Origin: a virus
Length of the DNA: 20,156 nucleotides
Virus record (IMG/VR): IMGVR_UViG_3300000115_000281
Span: 1-20,156 of that record
Strand: one strand, 5' to 3'
The first letter of the stretch is position 1. Every line of letters starts with the position of its first letter. Positions 4,400 through 19,672 of this stretch are shown here, in pieces. The translations under genes were made by a program, and so were the position numbers. The notes under the pieces were generated by a model, which was given only the letters and a program-made list of their open reading frames with translations, was not told the DNA's origin and did not search any database.

Positions 4400-5638
4400 T
4401 TATCTTATTTCTATCTTACCGTTACCCATTAAAGTGTAGGAAACTGAGTACCTTAGGGCGTCTAAAAGGTGGTTATAGTTGTCAATTAATGTACCTGATT
4501 TTTTATGACTGTAAGCATAGTTATTTAATTCTTTTGCAAGGTTTAAACTCTCAGGACATACAACTAAATCGTAATCTTGTATTAAAGCAATACCCGCATT
4601 AATAGAACCTGCTCCTTTTTTAGCTCCAACTATATTACACTTTTGTTTCCGCATTTCATCAATCATTCTCGGCTCTGCGCTATCCGCCACAACTAAGTTT
4701 TTACCACAAGTTAATAGTACTATATTGGCGGTATCTGTAGTACTTATTCCTGTGTTATACATATACTCCTTAGCATAGATTATCTTTTTCTTTTTGTCTA
4801 TTGCTACACCTATTAACGTTGTAGGGTCATTAGTAAAGCCAAAATCCATCCCATAGGTAACTTGTAATTCATTGGGGTTATATTCTCCCGTACTCCAATC
4901 ACTAAAAACAACTCCTTCTGCGCTATCCTGCCATCCTCCTAATATCTCAAGCAGGTATTTTTTTGGTCTATCACGCCTCATCCTATCCATATTCTTAATA
5001 AAGGACTTAGAAACATTCGCTTCATTGTCCTTATATGTAGTATGAATATAAGTAGTATCTCCCTTAGTAGTGTTGCTACCACCCGTAACGCCTGCTTGCT
5101 CAAAAAACCTCTTGTAAATCCAATGCTCCTTTGTTGCAGGATTCATTACTAATATAACCCTGTTTTGAATTCCTTTTTGTCGTACTGATAAATCTATTTT
5201 GTCGAATGTATCCTCATCCACTAACTCTTCAGCTTCCTCAACTACAAAGGTAGTGATACCCTGTAAGGATTTAAGATTTGCGCTTTGGTCACCTGATGAA
5301 GTTTTAATACCTCTAAATAATATCTTGCTTCCTGTAGTCTTATTTACAATCTCATTCTTAGTTATATGGAAATACTCCTTTAATCCAAACAATTCTATCT
5401 TCTCGAGGAATTCAGGGATAATACTTATTTCGGCTGATGTCATTGTATAACGTGTGAACAATATTTTATGTCCGCCCTCACAGGTTAATAACGTTAATAG
5501 TGATGCAATACTAAAAGATTTGGAAGACCCACGCCCACCTGTCACAATATAGTACCTGCTGTCTGTTTGCGTAATAGGCGCGTATTTAGGGCTTATTACT
5601 ACGTTTGGTTTACCCTTATTCATCTGTTGAGGTTTCAT
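4400..5638 (-). CDS. terL: Terminase large subunit (DNA packaging ATPase/nuclease)
   Basis: 412 residues, usual length for the PBSX/Terminase_3-type family. The ATPase domain has Walker A GGRGSSKS (34-41), Walker B TFVVEEAEE (130-138) with adjacent glutamates, and coupling motif MNP (165-167). The nuclease domain shows the expected acidic residues in YGMDFGFTNDPT (D265), VVADSAEP (D319) and HLLDALRY (D393). The protein would power translocation of DNA into the prohead and cut the concatemer, working with the small subunit whose gene overlaps it by 23 bp upstream. The portal gene that normally follows is absent; the next gene is a tail assembly chaperone. Confidence 0.97.
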   Translation of the reverse strand: MKPQQMNKGKPNVVISPKYAPITQTDSRYYIVTGGRGSSKSFSIASLLTLLTCEGGHKILFTRYTMTSAEISIIPEFLEKIELFGLKEYFHITKNEIVNKTTGSKILFRGIKTSSGDQSANLKSLQGITTFVVEEAEELVDEDTFDKIDLSVRQKGIQNRVILVMNPATKEHWIYKRFFEQAGVTGGSNTTKGDTTYIHTTYKDNEANVSKSFIKNMDRMRRDRPKKYLLEILGGWQDSAEGVVFSDWSTGEYNPNELQVTYGMDFGFTNDPTTLIGVAIDKKKKIIYAKEYMYNTGISTTDTANIVLLTCGKNLVVADSAEPRMIDEMRKQKCNIVGAKKGAGSINAGIALIQDYDLVVCPESLNLAKELNNYAYSHKKSGTLIDNYNHLLDALRYSVSYTLMGNGKIEIR

Positions 5639-5963
5639 CTGTTACATCTATAGTCACATCATCATCAATACCGAAACCTATTAAGTTTCTGAAATCAATA
5701 CCTGCTGACAGATTGGCAGATATTTCAACCTGAGCTGTAGGTTTAACTGTTGAGTACTCCAATAATAGTTTCCCTGCTTGTATGTTACCATCTATTGCTT
5801 CATTATATAACACCCGAAACACCTTACCTAATTCATCACGTGACAAATTGTCCTGCATTACATCCTTAAATTGATTTTTCCGTCTATCGTTTGGGTCTAA
5901 ACTTTTAGTTGAATGCCCGCCATTGTTAGCCCTCTTATCAATTTTCTTTATACCTTTATCCAT
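5616..5963 (-). CDS. terS: Putative terminase small subunit
   Basis: 115 residues, directly upstream of terL and overlapping it by 23 bp. The basic N-terminus (IKKIDKRANNGG, then DPNDRRKNQFKD) is followed by a helical core (residues about 34-75, ELGKVFRVLYNEAIDGNIQA) and a strongly acidic end. Size, basic-helical-acidic layout and position fit a small terminase subunit that recognises the packaging site. No HTH was confidently resolved, so the assignment leans on context. The start is preceded by A/T-rich sequence with no Shine-Dalgarno. No TAnnTTTG element was found in the 253-bp gap upstream. Confidence 0.65.
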   Translation of the reverse strand: MDKGIKKIDKRANNGGHSTKSLDPNDRRKNQFKDVMQDNLSRDELGKVFRVLYNEAIDGNIQAGKLLLEYSTVKPTAQVEISANLSAGIDFRNLIGFGIDDDVTIDVTDETSTDE

Positions 5964-6216: not shown

Positions 6217-6507
6217 TTACCCTTTATTATCTAACAATGTATTTAATATCTGAATATCCTCATTTTTACCATCCAATCTTTTGTATAAATCTCTAATGTC
6301 CATCAGCAAAATATGGTTATATGTTTCTGTTTCGTTTAGTTCTGATTTTAAAATTAACAGTTCATTATCTTGTTGTTCAATGATACCTTCCAAATCTAAC
6401 AATGTATCCTCATATTTTTTTCCCTCTAAATAGTCAACCCGTTTTTTTAATGCCACGTTTTTATCTACTAAGTTCCCGATTAATACGTCTTTTTCTTTAT
6501 GTGTCAT
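6217..6507 (-). CDS. Small coiled-coil protein, unknown function
   Basis: 96 residues, almost entirely helical with heptad-like leucine/isoleucine spacing (NLVDKNVALKKRVDYLEG, then LLDLEGIIEQQDNELLILKS). No membrane segment, Cys cluster or enzyme motif. It is the last gene of the small-gene cluster and is followed by a terminator. The start ATG is preceded by AAATAAATATAATT, the A/T-rich leader usual here. It could be an oligomerisation or adaptor protein; no function can be assigned. Confidence 0.7.
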   Translation of the reverse strand: MTHKEKDVLIGNLVDKNVALKKRVDYLEGKKYEDTLLDLEGIIEQQDNELLILKSELNETETYNHILLMDIRDLYKRLDGKNEDIQILNTLLDNKG

Positions 6508-6606
6508 AATTATATTTATTTAAGTTACTGATTATTAATGTTTTATCTTTTTACCTTTGTATTTTACCCCTTGTTAACTCCTATTCTCATTCATATTTTC
6601 AAATAT

Positions 6607-6664
6607 TGATGCAAATACAGCTATCTCTATATTACTATAAGACGTAGTCGAATCTGCATCAAAA
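6607..6664. repeat. Dispersed 58-bp repeat, intergenic copy (core flipped relative to the 18.5 kb copy)
   Basis: Three parts: left arm TGATGCAAATACAG (6607-6620), a 27-bp core (6621-6647), right arm TCGAATCTGCATCAAAA (6648-6664). The core is identical, in the same orientation, to 18490-18516. The left arm is the exact reverse complement of the right arm there, and the right arm matches the reverse complement of the left arm there in 16 of 17 bases. Read on the opposite strand, this is therefore the gene copy with its core inverted. The arms also form imperfect inverted repeats of each other. It lies in a 184-bp gap (6508-6691) with no ORF found. Confidence 0.9.
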
Positions 6665-8743: not shown

Positions 8744-9392
8744 ATTTATACTATAATTTTAACATAACTTTAACATATTAAATGCTAAACGCCTGATAAT
8801 CAGTAAACTAAAATATGAGGTTGAAGATATATACCTTTTATAATATGGTAATGCGCGCACGTCTACAACAATTAATTTAATAAACCTAATTATTTTTATA
8901 TAAATATGCAAATTTTCGACTACTGAACTTTCTCAGAAAAGATATATACTTATAAAGCAGGTATAAAATAGAGCGCTTAAAAGGGCTTTAAAATCGATTT
9001 ACGGAGGTGTAGAATTATTTTTACTATTTTAACATTTTTTAACACTAAAAGTTTTTTTATTCCATTTTTTTTTAAGTACTTTGCGTTGGCGCCTTAGAAT
9101 GAGATGTTAAAGTTTTGTTAAATACTTGTTTATTTATAAAAATATTTGTAACTCGCGCGCCCGCCCGCCTGCACGATACGAAATATAGTTTATATCCTAT
9201 CTTTATTTTACCACCTTTTTATTATTATCATCGTATGTTTGCCACGATGAAAAAAGCCCCTACAAAAATAAATTAACAATACAAAATAAAATGTATTAAA
9301 ACTTTGAATATAATTATTTTTTAATATCAAAGGATTTTAACATAAATTTAACAATGTATTTTTTTGAGGGGAGGGCATACCAAAACACCCCA
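8744..9392. other. Non-coding region, possible origin or control region
   Basis: No ORF of useful length was found on either strand. The DNA is very AT-rich with repeated TTTAACA words (near 8757, 8768, 9028, 9338) and a repeated AGATATATAC (8825-8834 and 8940-8949). Two isolated GC-rich blocks occur: TGCGCGCACGTC (8852-8863) and TCGCGCGCCCGCCCGCCTGC (9153-9172). A 7-bp hairpin TCATCGT/ACGATGA lies at 9228-9250. Together with the adjacent repeat array this is the best origin candidate in the window, by inference only. Confidence 0.4.
9234..9241 (+). promoter_or_regulatory. Possible plus-strand -7 element in a hairpin
   Basis: TATGTTTG on the plus strand, in the loop side of the hairpin at 9228-9250. 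It is identical to the best minus-strand elements here but points against all genes, towards the repeat array. No TTG at -33 was seen, and only a 9-codon ORF follows. A chance match is possible. Confidence 0.25.
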
Positions 9393-9523
9393 TCACGCCT
9401 TTTTAAGGAGAGCAATGGGATGCTTAATCGGTCACGCCTTTTTAAGGAAGGAGTAAGTATGTTACCTATCACGCCTTTTTAAGGACAGAGTATAGGATTT
9501 ATTTCGCTCACGCCTTTTTAGGA
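9393..9523. repeat. Four-copy array of the 17-bp repeat TCACGCCTTTTTAAGGA
   Basis: Copies at 9393-9409, 9432-9448, 9469-9485 are identical; 9508-9523 lacks one A. Start-to-start spacing is 39, 37 and 39 bp, and the intervening 20-22 bp sequences are unrelated to each other. The fourth copy forms the last codons and stop of the 53-residue gene. Each unit can form a small CCTT/AAGG stem. Two more copies lie at 19635-19672, and a 14-bp match (TCACGCCTTTTTAG) at 4206-4219 inside the chaperone gene. Confidence 0.9.
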
Positions 9524-9669
9524 GGCTCTTCAGGTGTCAAAACTTCAACTATCTTTTCTTGATTGTGAGCTATGTTATCAACTAATATCTTTAAGTTGTT
9601 CAACCTATTCTCTAATTCCTTCACTCTATTCTTTAGTGTGATTGTCTTTACATTGTTTACTATCTTCAT
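9508..9669 (-). CDS. Small coiled-coil protein, 53 aa, ending inside a repeat
   Basis: Begins MKIVNNVKTITLKNRVKELE and continues as a long heptad-like helix before TPEEPPKKA. The last codons CCT AAA AAG GCG TGA coincide with a copy of the dispersed repeat, so the C-terminus PKKA is encoded by repeat sequence. It follows the Cys-rich gene by 3 bases and is the last gene before the non-coding region. Function unknown; small coiled coils of this kind are often oligomerising or antagonist proteins, but that is speculation. Confidence 0.6.
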   Translation of the reverse strand: MKIVNNVKTITLKNRVKELENRLNNLKILVDNIAHNQEKIVEVLTPEEPPKKA

Positions 9670-12722: not shown

Positions 12723-12872
12723 TTATCTGTCTGTGTATTCTGTTATCCATCTGAACCTTAATCTCTTAACCTCAGCTTCGTATTCTTCTTTTGTTAATGA
12801 AGTGAATCCACTATGCCAAAACCTTCTGTGTAATTCTTTTATCTCTTCTAATACTTTATCTCTCTTATTCAT
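12723..12872 (-). CDS. Small basic hypothetical protein, 49 aa
   Basis: Begins MNKRDKVLEEIKELHRRFWH and continues as a charged helix with KEEYEAEVKRLRFRW. ATG at 12872 shares one base with the stop of the DnaA-like gene (TAATG), so the two are very probably co-translated. The charged, helical, Arg/Lys-rich composition could suit a partner or DNA-associated protein, but no family was recognised. Confidence 0.65.
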   Translation of the reverse strand: MNKRDKVLEEIKELHRRFWHSGFTSLTKEEYEAEVKRLRFRWITEYTDR

Positions 12873-13339
12873 TACATTCCTACGTTTATTATTTCAAATA
12901 CTTCTTTTCTATTATCATCTTTACGTTTCCATTCGAAACTCTTTAGTACCAATGAAGCTCTCTCATCATATATCCTTCTATCTTCTTCAGATAACTCTCT
13001 GTACATCTTCTCGTTGTTAGTTAGAACTTGACAATCTATATCTCTAATCACGTCCTCCTTAATCTCTTCACCAAAGAACTCTCTGTAGATATTCATATAG
13101 AAATCATCTCTCTCTAATAATGGGAATACATTGTTTCTTGTATGGATTACAGTAGCGTGACTCTTTCCAACTATCTTCCCTATTACATTCATTGATGCTC
13201 TTGTATCTTTTAACGCTATCTTATAATACAATGCTCTTGCATCAGTTACATCTGTTTGTCTTGACTTTGCAAGGATGTCAGCTCCCGTTCTTCTTGTTAC
13301 AAATTCTACTATCGTTTTTAATCTATTTTCGTTTTTCAT
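12872..13339 (-). CDS. DnaA domain IV-like (Bac_DnaA_C) HTH protein
   Basis: 155 residues. The N-terminal 75 residues align by eye with the DNA-binding domain IV of DnaA: TDVTDARALYYKIALKDTRA (29-48) then IGKIVGKSHATVIHTRNNV (53-71), whose GKSHATVIH matches the DnaA signature G-R-D-H-S-T-V-x-H. The AAA+ ATPase of DnaA is absent; the second half is a charged helical extension (YREFFGEEIKEDVIRDIDCQ). It would bind DNA, perhaps at the phage origin or at host DnaA sites, without ATP-driven melting. The start lies 20 bp after a TATGTTTG element, so the gene heads its own unit. Confidence 0.75.
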   Translation of the reverse strand: MKNENRLKTIVEFVTRRTGADILAKSRQTDVTDARALYYKIALKDTRASMNVIGKIVGKSHATVIHTRNNVFPLLERDDFYMNIYREFFGEEIKEDVIRDIDCQVLTNNEKMYRELSEEDRRIYDERASLVLKSFEWKRKDDNRKEVFEIINVGM

Positions 13340-14085: not shown

Positions 14086-14466
14086 TTATTTATATGTATT
14101 AAATTTGTGTTTTCCTTTATATCCTTTTTCGTGATAACTCCTCTCTAAATTAAGAGCGTCTTGTCTTTCAAAAAACCTTCCTAAAACTTTGACTTCAGAA
14201 ACATCTTTCCCATTACCTTTGTGTTTCCACAACCTTCTTTTTAAGTCCTCTGTAGTCCCTACGTAGTTTTCATTTACAAGCAGGTAAACTAAAGGAGGGT
14301 GCTTATCTTTTTTTGCTTTAGCTAAATCTGTTATTTTTTTTCTACCTAAAATCTCTTCTCTGTTTTCTTTGTGATAAGCTCTACTCTCTGCGTTCCGTTT
14401 ATCTTTGTTTTTTAAATGGTATCTTTGGTGCTTAGTCAACCCATCGTTTATCTTAACTCTTGACAT
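14086..14466 (-). CDS. GIY-YIG family endonuclease (probable homing enzyme)
   Basis: 126 residues. A basic N-terminal segment (residues 10-50: KHQRYHLKNKDKRNAESRAY, then HKENREEI) resembles the Lys/Asn/Tyr repeats that bind DNA in phage homing endonucleases. The C-terminal domain starts PPLVYLLVNENYVGTTEDLK (57-76): VYLL and NYVG stand for the GIY and YIG motifs, followed by RRLWKH (77-82, catalytic Arg and His region) and E108 in LNLERSYHEK. The degenerate first motif is common in free-standing members. It overlaps the upstream gene by 14 bp and sits beside FEN, a layout expected for a selfish endonuclease inserted between replication genes. No intron boundaries were seen. Confidence 0.75.
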   Translation of the reverse strand: MSRVKINDGLTKHQRYHLKNKDKRNAESRAYHKENREEILGRKKITDLAKAKKDKHPPLVYLLVNENYVGTTEDLKRRLWKHKGNGKDVSEVKVLGRFFERQDALNLERSYHEKGYKGKHKFNTYK

Positions 14467-14941
14467 TGTACTTGCTTAAAGGAGCTTCTCCTGCTAATTC
14501 TAACTCTTTCTGTAGGTTTGCAGCTGCTCTCCATAAAACCTTTGTGCTGTGTCTTACTCCGTCCGTATCCATAGTTCCTGCTTGTAACAAGTGTCTTGTT
14601 AAGGCGTCTAACTCATCACCACTCTTATCTCTATGCCATTGAAGAGGTTCGTCAGGAGCGTGTTGTTGCTGCCCTGCAAAACTGCATCTTGCTAAATCAT
14701 TGATTGCGTCAGGAAAGTAATTAAGAACTCCACTAAATACAGGAGTATTCTTTCGAGCTTGTGCTTCATCTTCTTTAGGATGACTAATGAACTCATTCTC
14801 TAACTCACCACAAGTACAATCACTACACATTCCATTACACACCGATTCTTCCTCCACCATCATATCTCTTATTGACATACCTGAGTTATTAGCGATATAC
14901 TGATTCCATTCATCTTCCATATACTTATCTAAACTATTCAT
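14453..14941 (-). CDS. dATP/dGTP diphosphohydrolase N-terminal domain protein (DUF5664-like)
   Basis: 162 residues. Residues 61-148 carry ARKNTPVFSGVLNYFPDAIN, LQWHRDKSGDELDALTRHLL and the VRHSTKVLWRAAANLQ helix, matching the phage family with GVL-YFPDA, H-D-KS-DE-DAL-RH and DG-RHS motifs. This family is named for dATP/dGTP diphosphohydrolases, suggesting control of the deoxynucleotide pool; activity is not proven for this member. The N-terminal 55 residues are an extra, acidic part with a Cys cluster at 35, 39, 42 and 44 (CNGMCSDCTC), possibly metal-binding. It overlaps the small Cys-rich gene upstream by ATGA. Confidence 0.75.
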   Translation of the reverse strand: MNSLDKYMEDEWNQYIANNSGMSIRDMMVEEESVCNGMCSDCTCGELENEFISHPKEDEAQARKNTPVFSGVLNYFPDAINDLARCSFAGQQQHAPDEPLQWHRDKSGDELDALTRHLLQAGTMDTDGVRHSTKVLWRAAANLQKELELAGEAPLSKYNVKS

Positions 14942-16522: not shown

Positions 16523-19114
16523 TTATATAAATAATTCATATTGGAATGGCTCTATGCCATCTTCTCTATTCTTTTTATCTTCTGCTTTAACTCCATCTAA
16601 CCAATCTAAAACATTTTCTCTTTCTATATACTCAGTAGATTTTATCACAGGTAAAAGATTATTACTTACTGTAAACTTCTTTCCAACAAACTTGTCAGTC
16701 TCTATCATAGGAATAGCTGAATATAAATCTATCTTAGAGGATGTTCTTGTACTACGACCTCTACCAATAGTTTGACTAATCTCAGCTTCTGCAATCTTAA
16801 CTTCAATTTCTGCTAAGTTCTTATCTTCAAATGTAAACAAAGTAAACTCGTGATGATTAGTCCTTACTGTCTGCTTAGACTTTTCTGTTGAAGCATAAGG
16901 AATATTAAGTAAAACTGCTTTAATTATTGTTGACTCACTTGGAGCTATTGGAGTACCAACAACAGATATATCCTTACCTTTAAACGAATCAATTCCTAAC
17001 GTATTACCAAAATAATACTCTTGTTGTTCCTTACCTTTAAAACTGCCTGAGTAAGCCTTGTATGTCAAAACTATATCACTATCTACCGTTGGAAAATCTC
17101 CTTTGCCTAACGTGCTTCTTGAGTAAGACTTTGTTGTATCTTGCTTAATTGGTTTAACATTAGACGCAGTACCTGAATGAAAGAAATCATAACCATCCTC
17201 TTTTGACAATAATCTGTCGTAAAAGTAACTATCAGCAGACGCACTCAACACAACAACCTTGCTAAAGCACTCATCAAACCCTCTAACATTGCCAAAGTGA
17301 TAAGAGGATACAGAGTTCCAATTAGTAATCTGAATAGCATAGTCAGCCTTAATTAGCTTAATGAATCCCGCAGTACCTTCTATCTGAGATAATCTTTCGA
17401 ATAGATTAGTTCTGTTCTTATATCTTATCTGAGTTTTAAACGTTCCTACTTGTCCGTCAACCAAGTCTGTAATCTCTAATCGTATGTTTAACATATCATA
17501 ATAAAAATCCTTAGTAGACTGAACTTTAGAATTCTCTCCATCACCTATTAAATTCAAAACATTGTCAATCACTCTATTGACTTTAGCAGTAGTAATTGAA
17601 GATGTAAACATTAACTCTCCCATAATATCCTCATCAAATATAACAGTATCTTTGTTAGCGAATAACTGTGGAGCTAACATAACTCTTGTGTGAGTTGTTA
17701 AAACAGTCACCTCAGACTCATAGGCTATCGCTAATGCACTTTTAAACTCAGAAGCAACTTGACTATCAGAAAAAGAATATTCGATGTTAGAAACGCTCCT
17801 ACCGTTTGCAACGTCATCTATTAAATTATTAGCCATCTTACTTTCTCCTATAGACTGAAGTGTGTTGTATCTTCTGTTTAAAGAATCTGCACTAAACAAT
17901 GGTGGAGCAGGAGTAACCACATAAGGTAAATTCTCTGAATCCATTCTCTCTGCAATTTCATCTTTTAGTCTGTGATTAGGTAAAGCTAATATAACATTAT
18001 CAACATTAATCATTTGCTTTGTCTTTCCTGTTCCTGTAGGAGCATTTATAATTGATACTCTGTTCTTAGACTTGAATGCGTTCTCGAAATGAGATTTAAA
18101 CTTACTTGCAACAACATCAATAGGTTCTTTTACAATCTCTCTAATTTGAGTTACAACTACTCTGTTCTTATTATCTAAACTTAAAACATTTGTATAACTA
18201 CCTGAAATCTTAGAATCGAAAGAAGACATAGATTCGGGATGTTGGTAACCTGCATTAGGTATTCTTCTTAACAAAGCGTAATCATCTCCATTGTAATCTC
18301 CTCGCTCATTCATTTTTAAACTTACATATTTCAAACCACCTCTAACAAACATCATATTTGAAATCAATGCTCTTAACTGTAAATATTTTAAATGAATAGT
18401 TCCTTTGTCAAATCCGTTAAACTGTTTTGAATTTTTACAAGCTTCATCGAAGTCAAATTGTTGTAATTTCTGTTTTGATGCAGATTCGGCTATCTCTATA
18501 TTACTATAAGACGTAGCTGTATTTGCATCATTTTGTGATATATTTAACTTTTTGATTGTTCGAGTGTGATTGTTTAAAGCCTTGTCTTTATTGATTAAAT
18601 CAGCAATCGCTCCTTTTATGTCATTCCAAATATTAACCCTTCCATTTATCACTTTTGGCTCAGTTCCCGCATAAAACATCCTCGATAAATCTTTAGTTGC
18701 ACCATCAGAACCTCCAATTTTAATTAAAGTATTCATTACATTTTTAAACAAAGATGGGTCTTCTATAATCGTATCAAGAACAATTACTAATCTAAACTTG
18801 CGGAACTCCTTCTTATTAGAAAAAGAATTATAAGTTAAGTTAACATTAATACCATATTCCTTAAATTTCTCTATTTCTTTTAATGGGTCTTGGTTATCAT
18901 CAAAGTCTAACATAAAGACTTGACAACCTACAAAGTTAGCGTTCTTCCTATGTTCACTATTAAGTATAGATGGAACGATAGTCTGACCGTTTGAGATTAT
19001 GTCCCTTAATTCCTTAAAGTCAACCTCTTTAGTTTTGTATCCATTTTGTAAATTATAAGCATCAGTAGGTTTACTACTATAGCTTTTTGGATGTATTGAT
19101 AATTTGAATTTCAT
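16523..19114 (-). CDS. Primase-helicase fusion (AEP-type primase plus superfamily 2 helicase)
   Basis: 863 residues. The N-terminal domain has GCQVFMLDFDD (63-73), the acidic pair of archaeo-eukaryotic-type primases. It is followed by NLTYNSFSNKKEFRKFRLVI (92-111) and SRMFYAGTEP (144-153), the matching C-terminal motifs. A linker of about 180 to 230 contains the dispersed repeat. The helicase part has Walker A APTGTGKT (358-365), a DED in VIFDEDIMGEL (491-501), VVLSASAD (621-628) and motif VI QTIGRGRSTR (781-790). One protein thus both unwinds and primes phage DNA replication. A primed DNA polymerase is not in the window. A promoter lies 22 bp upstream of the ATG. Confidence 0.85.
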   Translation of the reverse strand: MKFKLSIHPKSYSSKPTDAYNLQNGYKTKEVDFKELRDIISNGQTIVPSILNSEHRKNANFVGCQVFMLDFDDNQDPLKEIEKFKEYGINVNLTYNSFSNKKEFRKFRLVIVLDTIIEDPSLFKNVMNTLIKIGGSDGATKDLSRMFYAGTEPKVINGRVNIWNDIKGAIADLINKDKALNNHTRTIKKLNISQNDANTATSYSNIEIAESASKQKLQQFDFDEACKNSKQFNGFDKGTIHLKYLQLRALISNMMFVRGGLKYVSLKMNERGDYNGDDYALLRRIPNAGYQHPESMSSFDSKISGSYTNVLSLDNKNRVVVTQIREIVKEPIDVVASKFKSHFENAFKSKNRVSIINAPTGTGKTKQMINVDNVILALPNHRLKDEIAERMDSENLPYVVTPAPPLFSADSLNRRYNTLQSIGESKMANNLIDDVANGRSVSNIEYSFSDSQVASEFKSALAIAYESEVTVLTTHTRVMLAPQLFANKDTVIFDEDIMGELMFTSSITTAKVNRVIDNVLNLIGDGENSKVQSTKDFYYDMLNIRLEITDLVDGQVGTFKTQIRYKNRTNLFERLSQIEGTAGFIKLIKADYAIQITNWNSVSSYHFGNVRGFDECFSKVVVLSASADSYFYDRLLSKEDGYDFFHSGTASNVKPIKQDTTKSYSRSTLGKGDFPTVDSDIVLTYKAYSGSFKGKEQQEYYFGNTLGIDSFKGKDISVVGTPIAPSESTIIKAVLLNIPYASTEKSKQTVRTNHHEFTLFTFEDKNLAEIEVKIAEAEISQTIGRGRSTRTSSKIDLYSAIPMIETDKFVGKKFTVSNNLLPVIKSTEYIERENVLDWLDGVKAEDKKNREDGIEPFQYELFI
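18473..18530. repeat. Dispersed 58-bp repeat, copy within the primase-helicase gene
   Basis: Left arm 18473-18489, 27-bp core 18490-18516 and right arm 18517-18530. It encodes residues around 196-214 (DANTATSYSNIEIAESASK), in the linker between primase and helicase domains, and keeps the frame open. The core is identical to 6621-6647, but the arms are exchanged and reversed there. If the core were inverted here, the frame would meet a TAA in it and the protein would stop before the helicase. Confidence 0.9.
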
Positions 19115-19617: not shown

Positions 19618-19634
19618 CTTATGTTTTTAATCAA

Positions 19635-19672
19635 TCACGCCTTTTTAAGGAGGTATCACGCCTTTTTAAGGA
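19635..19672. repeat. Tandem pair of TCACGCCTTTTTAAGGA in the nuclease leader
   Basis: Copies at 19635-19651 and 19656-19672 with 4 bp between (21-bp period; sequence extends as ACCTCCTTAAAAAGGCGTGAT on minus). They lie between a probable promoter (19720-19727) and the ATG at 19617, so they should be transcribed. The minus-strand ACCTCCTT resembles the 3' end of 16S rRNA, which may be coincidence. Confidence 0.85.

Follow-up and report, generated by a model that had tools for sequence, protein, structure and literature searches.

The window, a 20,156-nucleotide contig of a marine flavophage whose recognisable genes lie on the minus strand, carries two copies of a 55-bp imperfect palindrome (quasi-palindrome), one between two small genes (6607-6661) and the other inside a putative primase-helicase gene (18476-18530). 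Comparison with related phages indicates that the two copies very probably form a paired palindromic element that evolves in concert. The fuller reading, in which the pair is a concertedly copied, cis-acting element acting in replication, is plausible and falls somewhat short of even confidence; the replication role taken by itself is advanced slightly more tentatively.

Architecture of the palindromic pair

For comparison, each copy was split into two 17-nt arms and a 21-nt core, with the following layout:

6607..6661, minus strand: intergenic copy, a 55-bp quasi-palindrome between two small genes, reading B'-core-A' on the coding strand
6645..6661, minus strand: intergenic 5' arm B', an inverted copy of the gene's 3' arm (16/17)
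6624..6644, minus strand: intergenic core of the gene type, TCTTATAGTAATATAGA, matching the gene core base for base in the direct sense
6607..6623, minus strand: intergenic 3' arm A', an inverted copy of the gene's 5' arm (17/17)
18476..18530, minus strand: gene copy, A-core-B, within the primase-helicase gene, encoding NDANTATSYSNIEIAESAS
18514..18530, minus strand: gene-copy 5' arm A
18493..18513, minus strand: gene-copy core, departing from a perfect palindrome where TAA would be read
18476..18492, minus strand: gene-copy 3' arm B

The arms of the two copies agree at 33/34 positions when flipped versus 27/34 unflipped, whereas the core agrees at 21/21 positions directly versus 6/21 when inverted, which bears out the original prediction of two matching copies with a direct core and swapped, reverse-complemented arms. 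The size of 58 bp given there is reduced to 55 bp, the extra bases being flank, and that otherwise correct anatomy had missed both the copies in relatives and the quasi-palindromic nature of the core itself, through which each whole copy folds into one hairpin. Self-comparison of the window returns a direct match of 6606-6661 with 18475-18530 (88% over 56 nt) together with inverted arm matches at 6599-6628/18509-18538 and 6640-6664/18473-18497; in the window record, the blastn match between the copies has E = 8e-16. Four folds of the window hairpins give z = -3.5 to -6.9, with strong folding on both strands. Each site holds one lone quasi-palindrome without tandem direct repeats, and the gene holds a single copy of the element. 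Pattern and model searches found no third copy, so that two are present per genome where both regions are covered, 11.87 kb apart in the window and 12.25 kb apart in the related phage L011.

The gene copy is placed just past the matched N-terminal domain (residues 3-194) of the primase-helicase. The ideal core, TCTTATA-NNN-TATAAGA, is perfect in the intergenic copies of the related phages L014 and L015 and nearly so in that of L011. Read in the frame of the gene, each of the 64 perfect cores with a 3-nt loop gives TAA, always at one and the same codon, and an in-frame TAA also arises from every inverted core that was tried. The gene copies of the window and of L011 depart from the palindrome exactly there, with TATAGA replacing TATAAGA and a bulged T left behind. 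The gene copy looks like a palindrome bent for readability, and its core orientation appears locked because ideal and inverted cores alike give a stop in frame. The intergenic copy of the window carries the gene-type core letter for letter, though it is free of coding need; the simplest reading is a recent copying of this core out of the gene without inversion, the near-identity of the two copies then following from a copying event combined with the reading frame. The inverted intergenic arms point to copying in the opposite sense, either as a separate event or at an earlier time.

Template switching homogenises the arms of inverted repeats and inverts their spacers (PMC8604942). Judged from the sequence pattern, the swapped arms are attributed to template switching or gene conversion. 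A palindromic element could be copied in either orientation, which would leave its arms swapped. Among the origins proposed earlier, template switching or a recombination that sets the core against its arms remains a good account of this arrangement (PMC8604942).

The two sites lie among the following genes:

16523..19114, minus strand: 863-aa putative primase-helicase, whose N-terminal domain matches phrog_25531 (unknown function)
6217..6507, minus strand: gene for a 96-aa coiled-coil-like protein, directly downstream of the intergenic copy
4400..5963, minus strand: terminase region, 0.6 kb further downstream of 6217..6507
5616-5963, minus strand: putative terminase small subunit, named by position and size
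4400-5638, minus strand: terminase large subunit

The primase and helicase assignments of the 863-aa protein combine weak matches with motifs read by eye; specifically, a GTGKT P-loop, DEDI and QTIGRGRS would make it an SF2-type helicase. Its AlphaFold model is uninformative (pLDDT 31), a search of solved structures gave no match, and two scans of bacterial genomes returned no relative of the gene. Plasmids and cultured phages match the N-terminal part of the protein only, at ~30% identity. At the intergenic site, the start of the 96-aa gene keeps its place beside the hairpin in all four lineages that have the intergenic copy (4/4). Other replication or recombination genes in the window encode a 5'-3' exonuclease, a DnaA domain IV-like protein and a DUF1064 protein, the last with a match to a Holliday junction resolvase family. 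The DnaA-like product (12872-13339) is a phage protein with a match to the DnaA-box-binding domain IV and without the ATPase domain; a DnaA-box search of the window returned a single box-like sequence (TTATTCACA) and none at the element.

A small GIY-YIG-like ORF (14086-14466; weak Pfam match, below cut-off) lies between the dATP/dGTP hydrolase-like and exonuclease genes, and it may be a free-standing homing endonuclease because the close relative L004 is without matching DNA there (BLAST jumps from 14091 to 14727). In two relatives (L127:1465-2064, L015:680-1279), a gene for a 199-aa DUF7178 protein, matched in L127, apparently sits among the small genes that lie upstream of the intergenic hairpin, and no corresponding ORF is listed in that region of the window.

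Orthologous copies and concerted change

Three related phages carry an intergenic copy at the place orthologous to window 6607-6661:

L011:13829-13883: intergenic copy of L011
L014:3078-3132 (= L127:3078-3132): intergenic copy of L014
L015:2497-2551: intergenic copy of L015

The most informative of these is L011 (IMG/VR 3300009428_000113), whose primase-helicase protein is 85% identical to that of the window. The two genes align without a gap across all 2592 bases, and the second L011 copy sits in the orthologous intergenic place, adjoining the orthologue of gene 6217-6507. The same gene copy is present in L004/L005, whose gene is ~98% alike to that of the window, and the intergenic copy is present in L014/L127 (one sample) and in L015; the element recurs in related phages, where the original prediction had proposed to look for it, with both copies in L011 and one in each of the others. 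Gene order is collinear across the window, L011 and L004/L005. The data set comprises six distinct copies from four lineages, both copies being seen in two phage lineages and a single copy in the other, partial contigs. In the coding direction, the arms of L011 agree at 31/34 positions flipped versus 28 unflipped and its core at 17/21 directly versus 12 inverted, the same arrangement as in the window; the L015 arms have diverged too far for an orientation to be assigned.

An ungapped L011 gene and an orthologous second copy together show that the element is no insertion and speak against a mobile element; the pair is old. The tiny mobile element suggested originally, with a relative that would align around an empty locus, is not supported, since L011 aligns straight through the gene copy and carries its other copy in the orthologous intergenic gap. 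A genome with two near-identical copies ending in inverted repeats does recall a MITE- or REPIN-like element, or an assembly artefact, yet both are refuted as far as the data go and retain a negligible probability: the copies hold orthologous positions in independent assemblies, the gene shows no insertion gap, no third copy was found, and other pattern matches are without hairpin form. There is no empty site in the L011 gene; the related contig G003 is without the intergenic copy, but the region is rearranged there. Assembly error of one copy, which had been left as a possibility, is ruled out by recurrence of the element in independent samples and assemblies. The earlier alternative of a recent event or selection stands in part, in that exact core identity looks like recent gene-to-intergenic copying; as a statement about the pair, which is old, recency does not hold.

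Arm agreement reaches 31-33/34 within a phage versus 18-22/34 between phages in either sense, and five stem base pairs have changed on both sides (types C-G to U-A, A-U to U-A and C-G to A-U). Because the arms are far closer within a phage than between phages and the stems carry compensatory changes, the copies evolve in concert. The element belongs to the faster-changing stretches of the gene, 17/55 bases differing from L011 versus 18% gene-wide, a divergence equalled or exceeded by 3% of same-size gene windows, some of which overlap the element. Stem cells are paired in 75% of cases versus 30-40% when slid, a good though not overwhelming result from six sequences. The outer arms and TCTTATA are invariant or nearly so, and TCTTATA lies on the coding strand in 6/6 copies. 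The covariation is no proof of selection because template switching by itself can make compensatory changes (PMC8794818). Under concerted evolution, the arms of the gene copy in the L015 lineage should match TGAAGCATATCTGACAT / ATGTGATATCTGCGTCA, whichever way round they lie.

The intergenic copy is the strongest palindrome found in L011, in L127 and in L015. A model of the element, searched against 16 sources, among them G003 and two Nonlabens phages from culture, recovered the known copies only, on the coding strand (E 6e-23 to 5e-20), and in 81 loci of wider relatives it found none, two weak matches being inspected and dismissed. Paired palindromes and a matching primase-helicase are likewise absent from the 80 loci of wider terminase relatives kept from 589 matches. 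The nearest cultured phages by terminase (56%), Nonlabens phages P12024L and P12024S, have no matching primase-helicase and no pair. G003 is syntenic, but its intergenic copy is absent, its intergenic region is rearranged, and its primase region is off contig or absent. In unrelated phages, 28 new pattern matches were rejected, being without hairpin symmetry. From this distribution the element seems tied to a small marine clade, and possibly to the primase-helicase gene itself.

A candidate replication role and its alternatives

In the proposed mechanism, the two copies would work in cis as a pair: the 55-bp quasi-palindrome, which can fold into a hairpin or cruciform, would likely be bound in double-stranded form by a phage replication protein. 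One site lies in the putative replication gene, where the N-terminal domain ends, and the other, 12 kb off, in an intergenic gap near the terminase; template switching or gene conversion in either orientation would keep the two alike. One may serve as an origin or initiator site, with the other acting as a second origin or as a fork barrier, along the lines suggested for oriL and oriR of SPP1.

In SPP1, initiator gene 38 contains oriL, and oriR occupies noncoding DNA 12-13 kb away; binding of the initiator at oriR has been proposed to halt forks and set off concatemer synthesis (PMC6316719; PMC3485210). The present pair resembles this layout in having one site in a putative primase-helicase gene and a similar second site in an intergenic gap, at a spacing (11.87 kb in the window, 12.25 kb in L011) close to that of SPP1; the two sites resemble each other as oriL and oriR do, SPP1 oriR lying in the late region. 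Unlike the direct repeats and AT-rich unwinding element of SPP1, which are bound by gp38, each site here is a single 55-bp quasi-palindrome with arms swapped relative to the core. The role is accordingly described as working like a paired replication site outside the SPP1-type family, a placement suggested by the missing direct repeats and by an iteron-like array elsewhere in the window. The phage lambda origin, inside gene O and built of inverted repeats (PMC5043065), offers a second parallel for a candidate replication site with inverted repeats embedded in coding sequence; unlike lambda, where four 19-bp inverted-repeat iterons and an AT-rich tract occupy one place and no distant second copy is described (PMC5043065), the gene here holds one copy.

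The iteron-like array belongs to a second repeat family, CTCCTTAAAAAGGCGTGA, with four copies at 9385-9524, 37-39 bp apart, that adjoin a long AT-rich noncoding stretch; another two, at 19627-19672, are 21 bp apart and lie just upstream of the DUF1064 and primase genes. The family also occurs at L005 972-1010 and L011 10740-10843. The array is iteron- or operator-like, a better candidate for initiator sites than the palindrome, with which it competes as the location of the origin. A very GC-rich run, ggcgggcgggcgcgcgag, lies at 9150-9170 inside the otherwise AT-rich noncoding region. GC skew shows no switch at either palindrome site.

An RNA-level role is unlikely, and of the functional alternatives it has the most in its favour. 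If transcribed, the intergenic copy could base-pair through its arms with those of the primase mRNA in trans; alternatively, both copies could act as hairpins in mRNA that a protein or RNase III recognises. The intergenic sense arms are indeed complementary to the gene's sense RNA at 33/34 positions in the window and 31/34 in L011, versus 26-28/34 for the arms of their own hairpins; TCTTATA on the coding strand of all six copies and the strong folding of both strands would also fit. An inverted copy, however, yields complementary arms automatically, and the cores are non-complementary in trans (6/21 pairs in the window, 12/21 in L011). Both gene copies show A-C mismatches and no G-U on the mRNA strand, which makes an mRNA hairpin less likely as the selected form in the gene; they also fold better as the opposite strand (-17.0 vs -24.4; -16.3 vs -24.7), and an Rfam search gave no match at E up to 0.5. 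Somewhat less probable again is the absence of any function, with the palindrome persisting and homogenising only through hairpin-promoted template switching and gene conversion. Such switching does homogenise arms and invert spacers (PMC8604942) and does make compensatory changes (PMC8794818), but two distant places are kept in the L011 and window lineages, the gene copy retains its hairpin as far as the frame permits, and the outer arms and TCTTATA are invariant or nearly so. The poorest of the three is site-specific recombination, in which a recombinase acting on both palindromes would invert the core or the intervening 12-kb segment: the arm/core/arm anatomy in two copies is suggestive and the inverted arms could permit flipping of the 12 kb between them, yet the scanned proteins (a subset of ORFs, from partial contigs) include no recombinase or integrase, gene order is collinear in the window, L011 and L004/L005, and an inverted core puts a stop in the gene.

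The opposite sense of core and arms and the multi-base compensatory changes are explained by quasi-palindrome template switching (PMC8604942, PMC8794818), except that switching as described operates between the arms of one inverted repeat and must here also act across two sites 12 kb apart. REP/REPIN and MITE sequences share the short palindromic units and near-identical copies; unlike these mobile or numerous elements, the pair is fixed at two orthologous places, partly in a reading frame.

Implications of a possible paired replication site

A more specific form of the replication reading, which we regard as speculative, is two-site recognition: a palindrome in the linker of a replication gene, bent to stay readable, would have an intergenic partner rewritten in concert in each lineage by copying in either orientation, and the two would form a self-updating origin/fork-barrier pair or an RNA pair controlling the primase. 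Compensatory changes and inverted spacers call for caution, as both can stem from template switching. If the paired replication site is real, it would be a compact natural case of one stretch of DNA serving both a cis-acting structure and a protein reading frame, with two distant sites holding on to a shared sequence even as it changes. Two questions would then become testable: how origin-type specificity shifts while the partner site is retained, and whether hairpin-driven copying across distant sites is able to bring this about.
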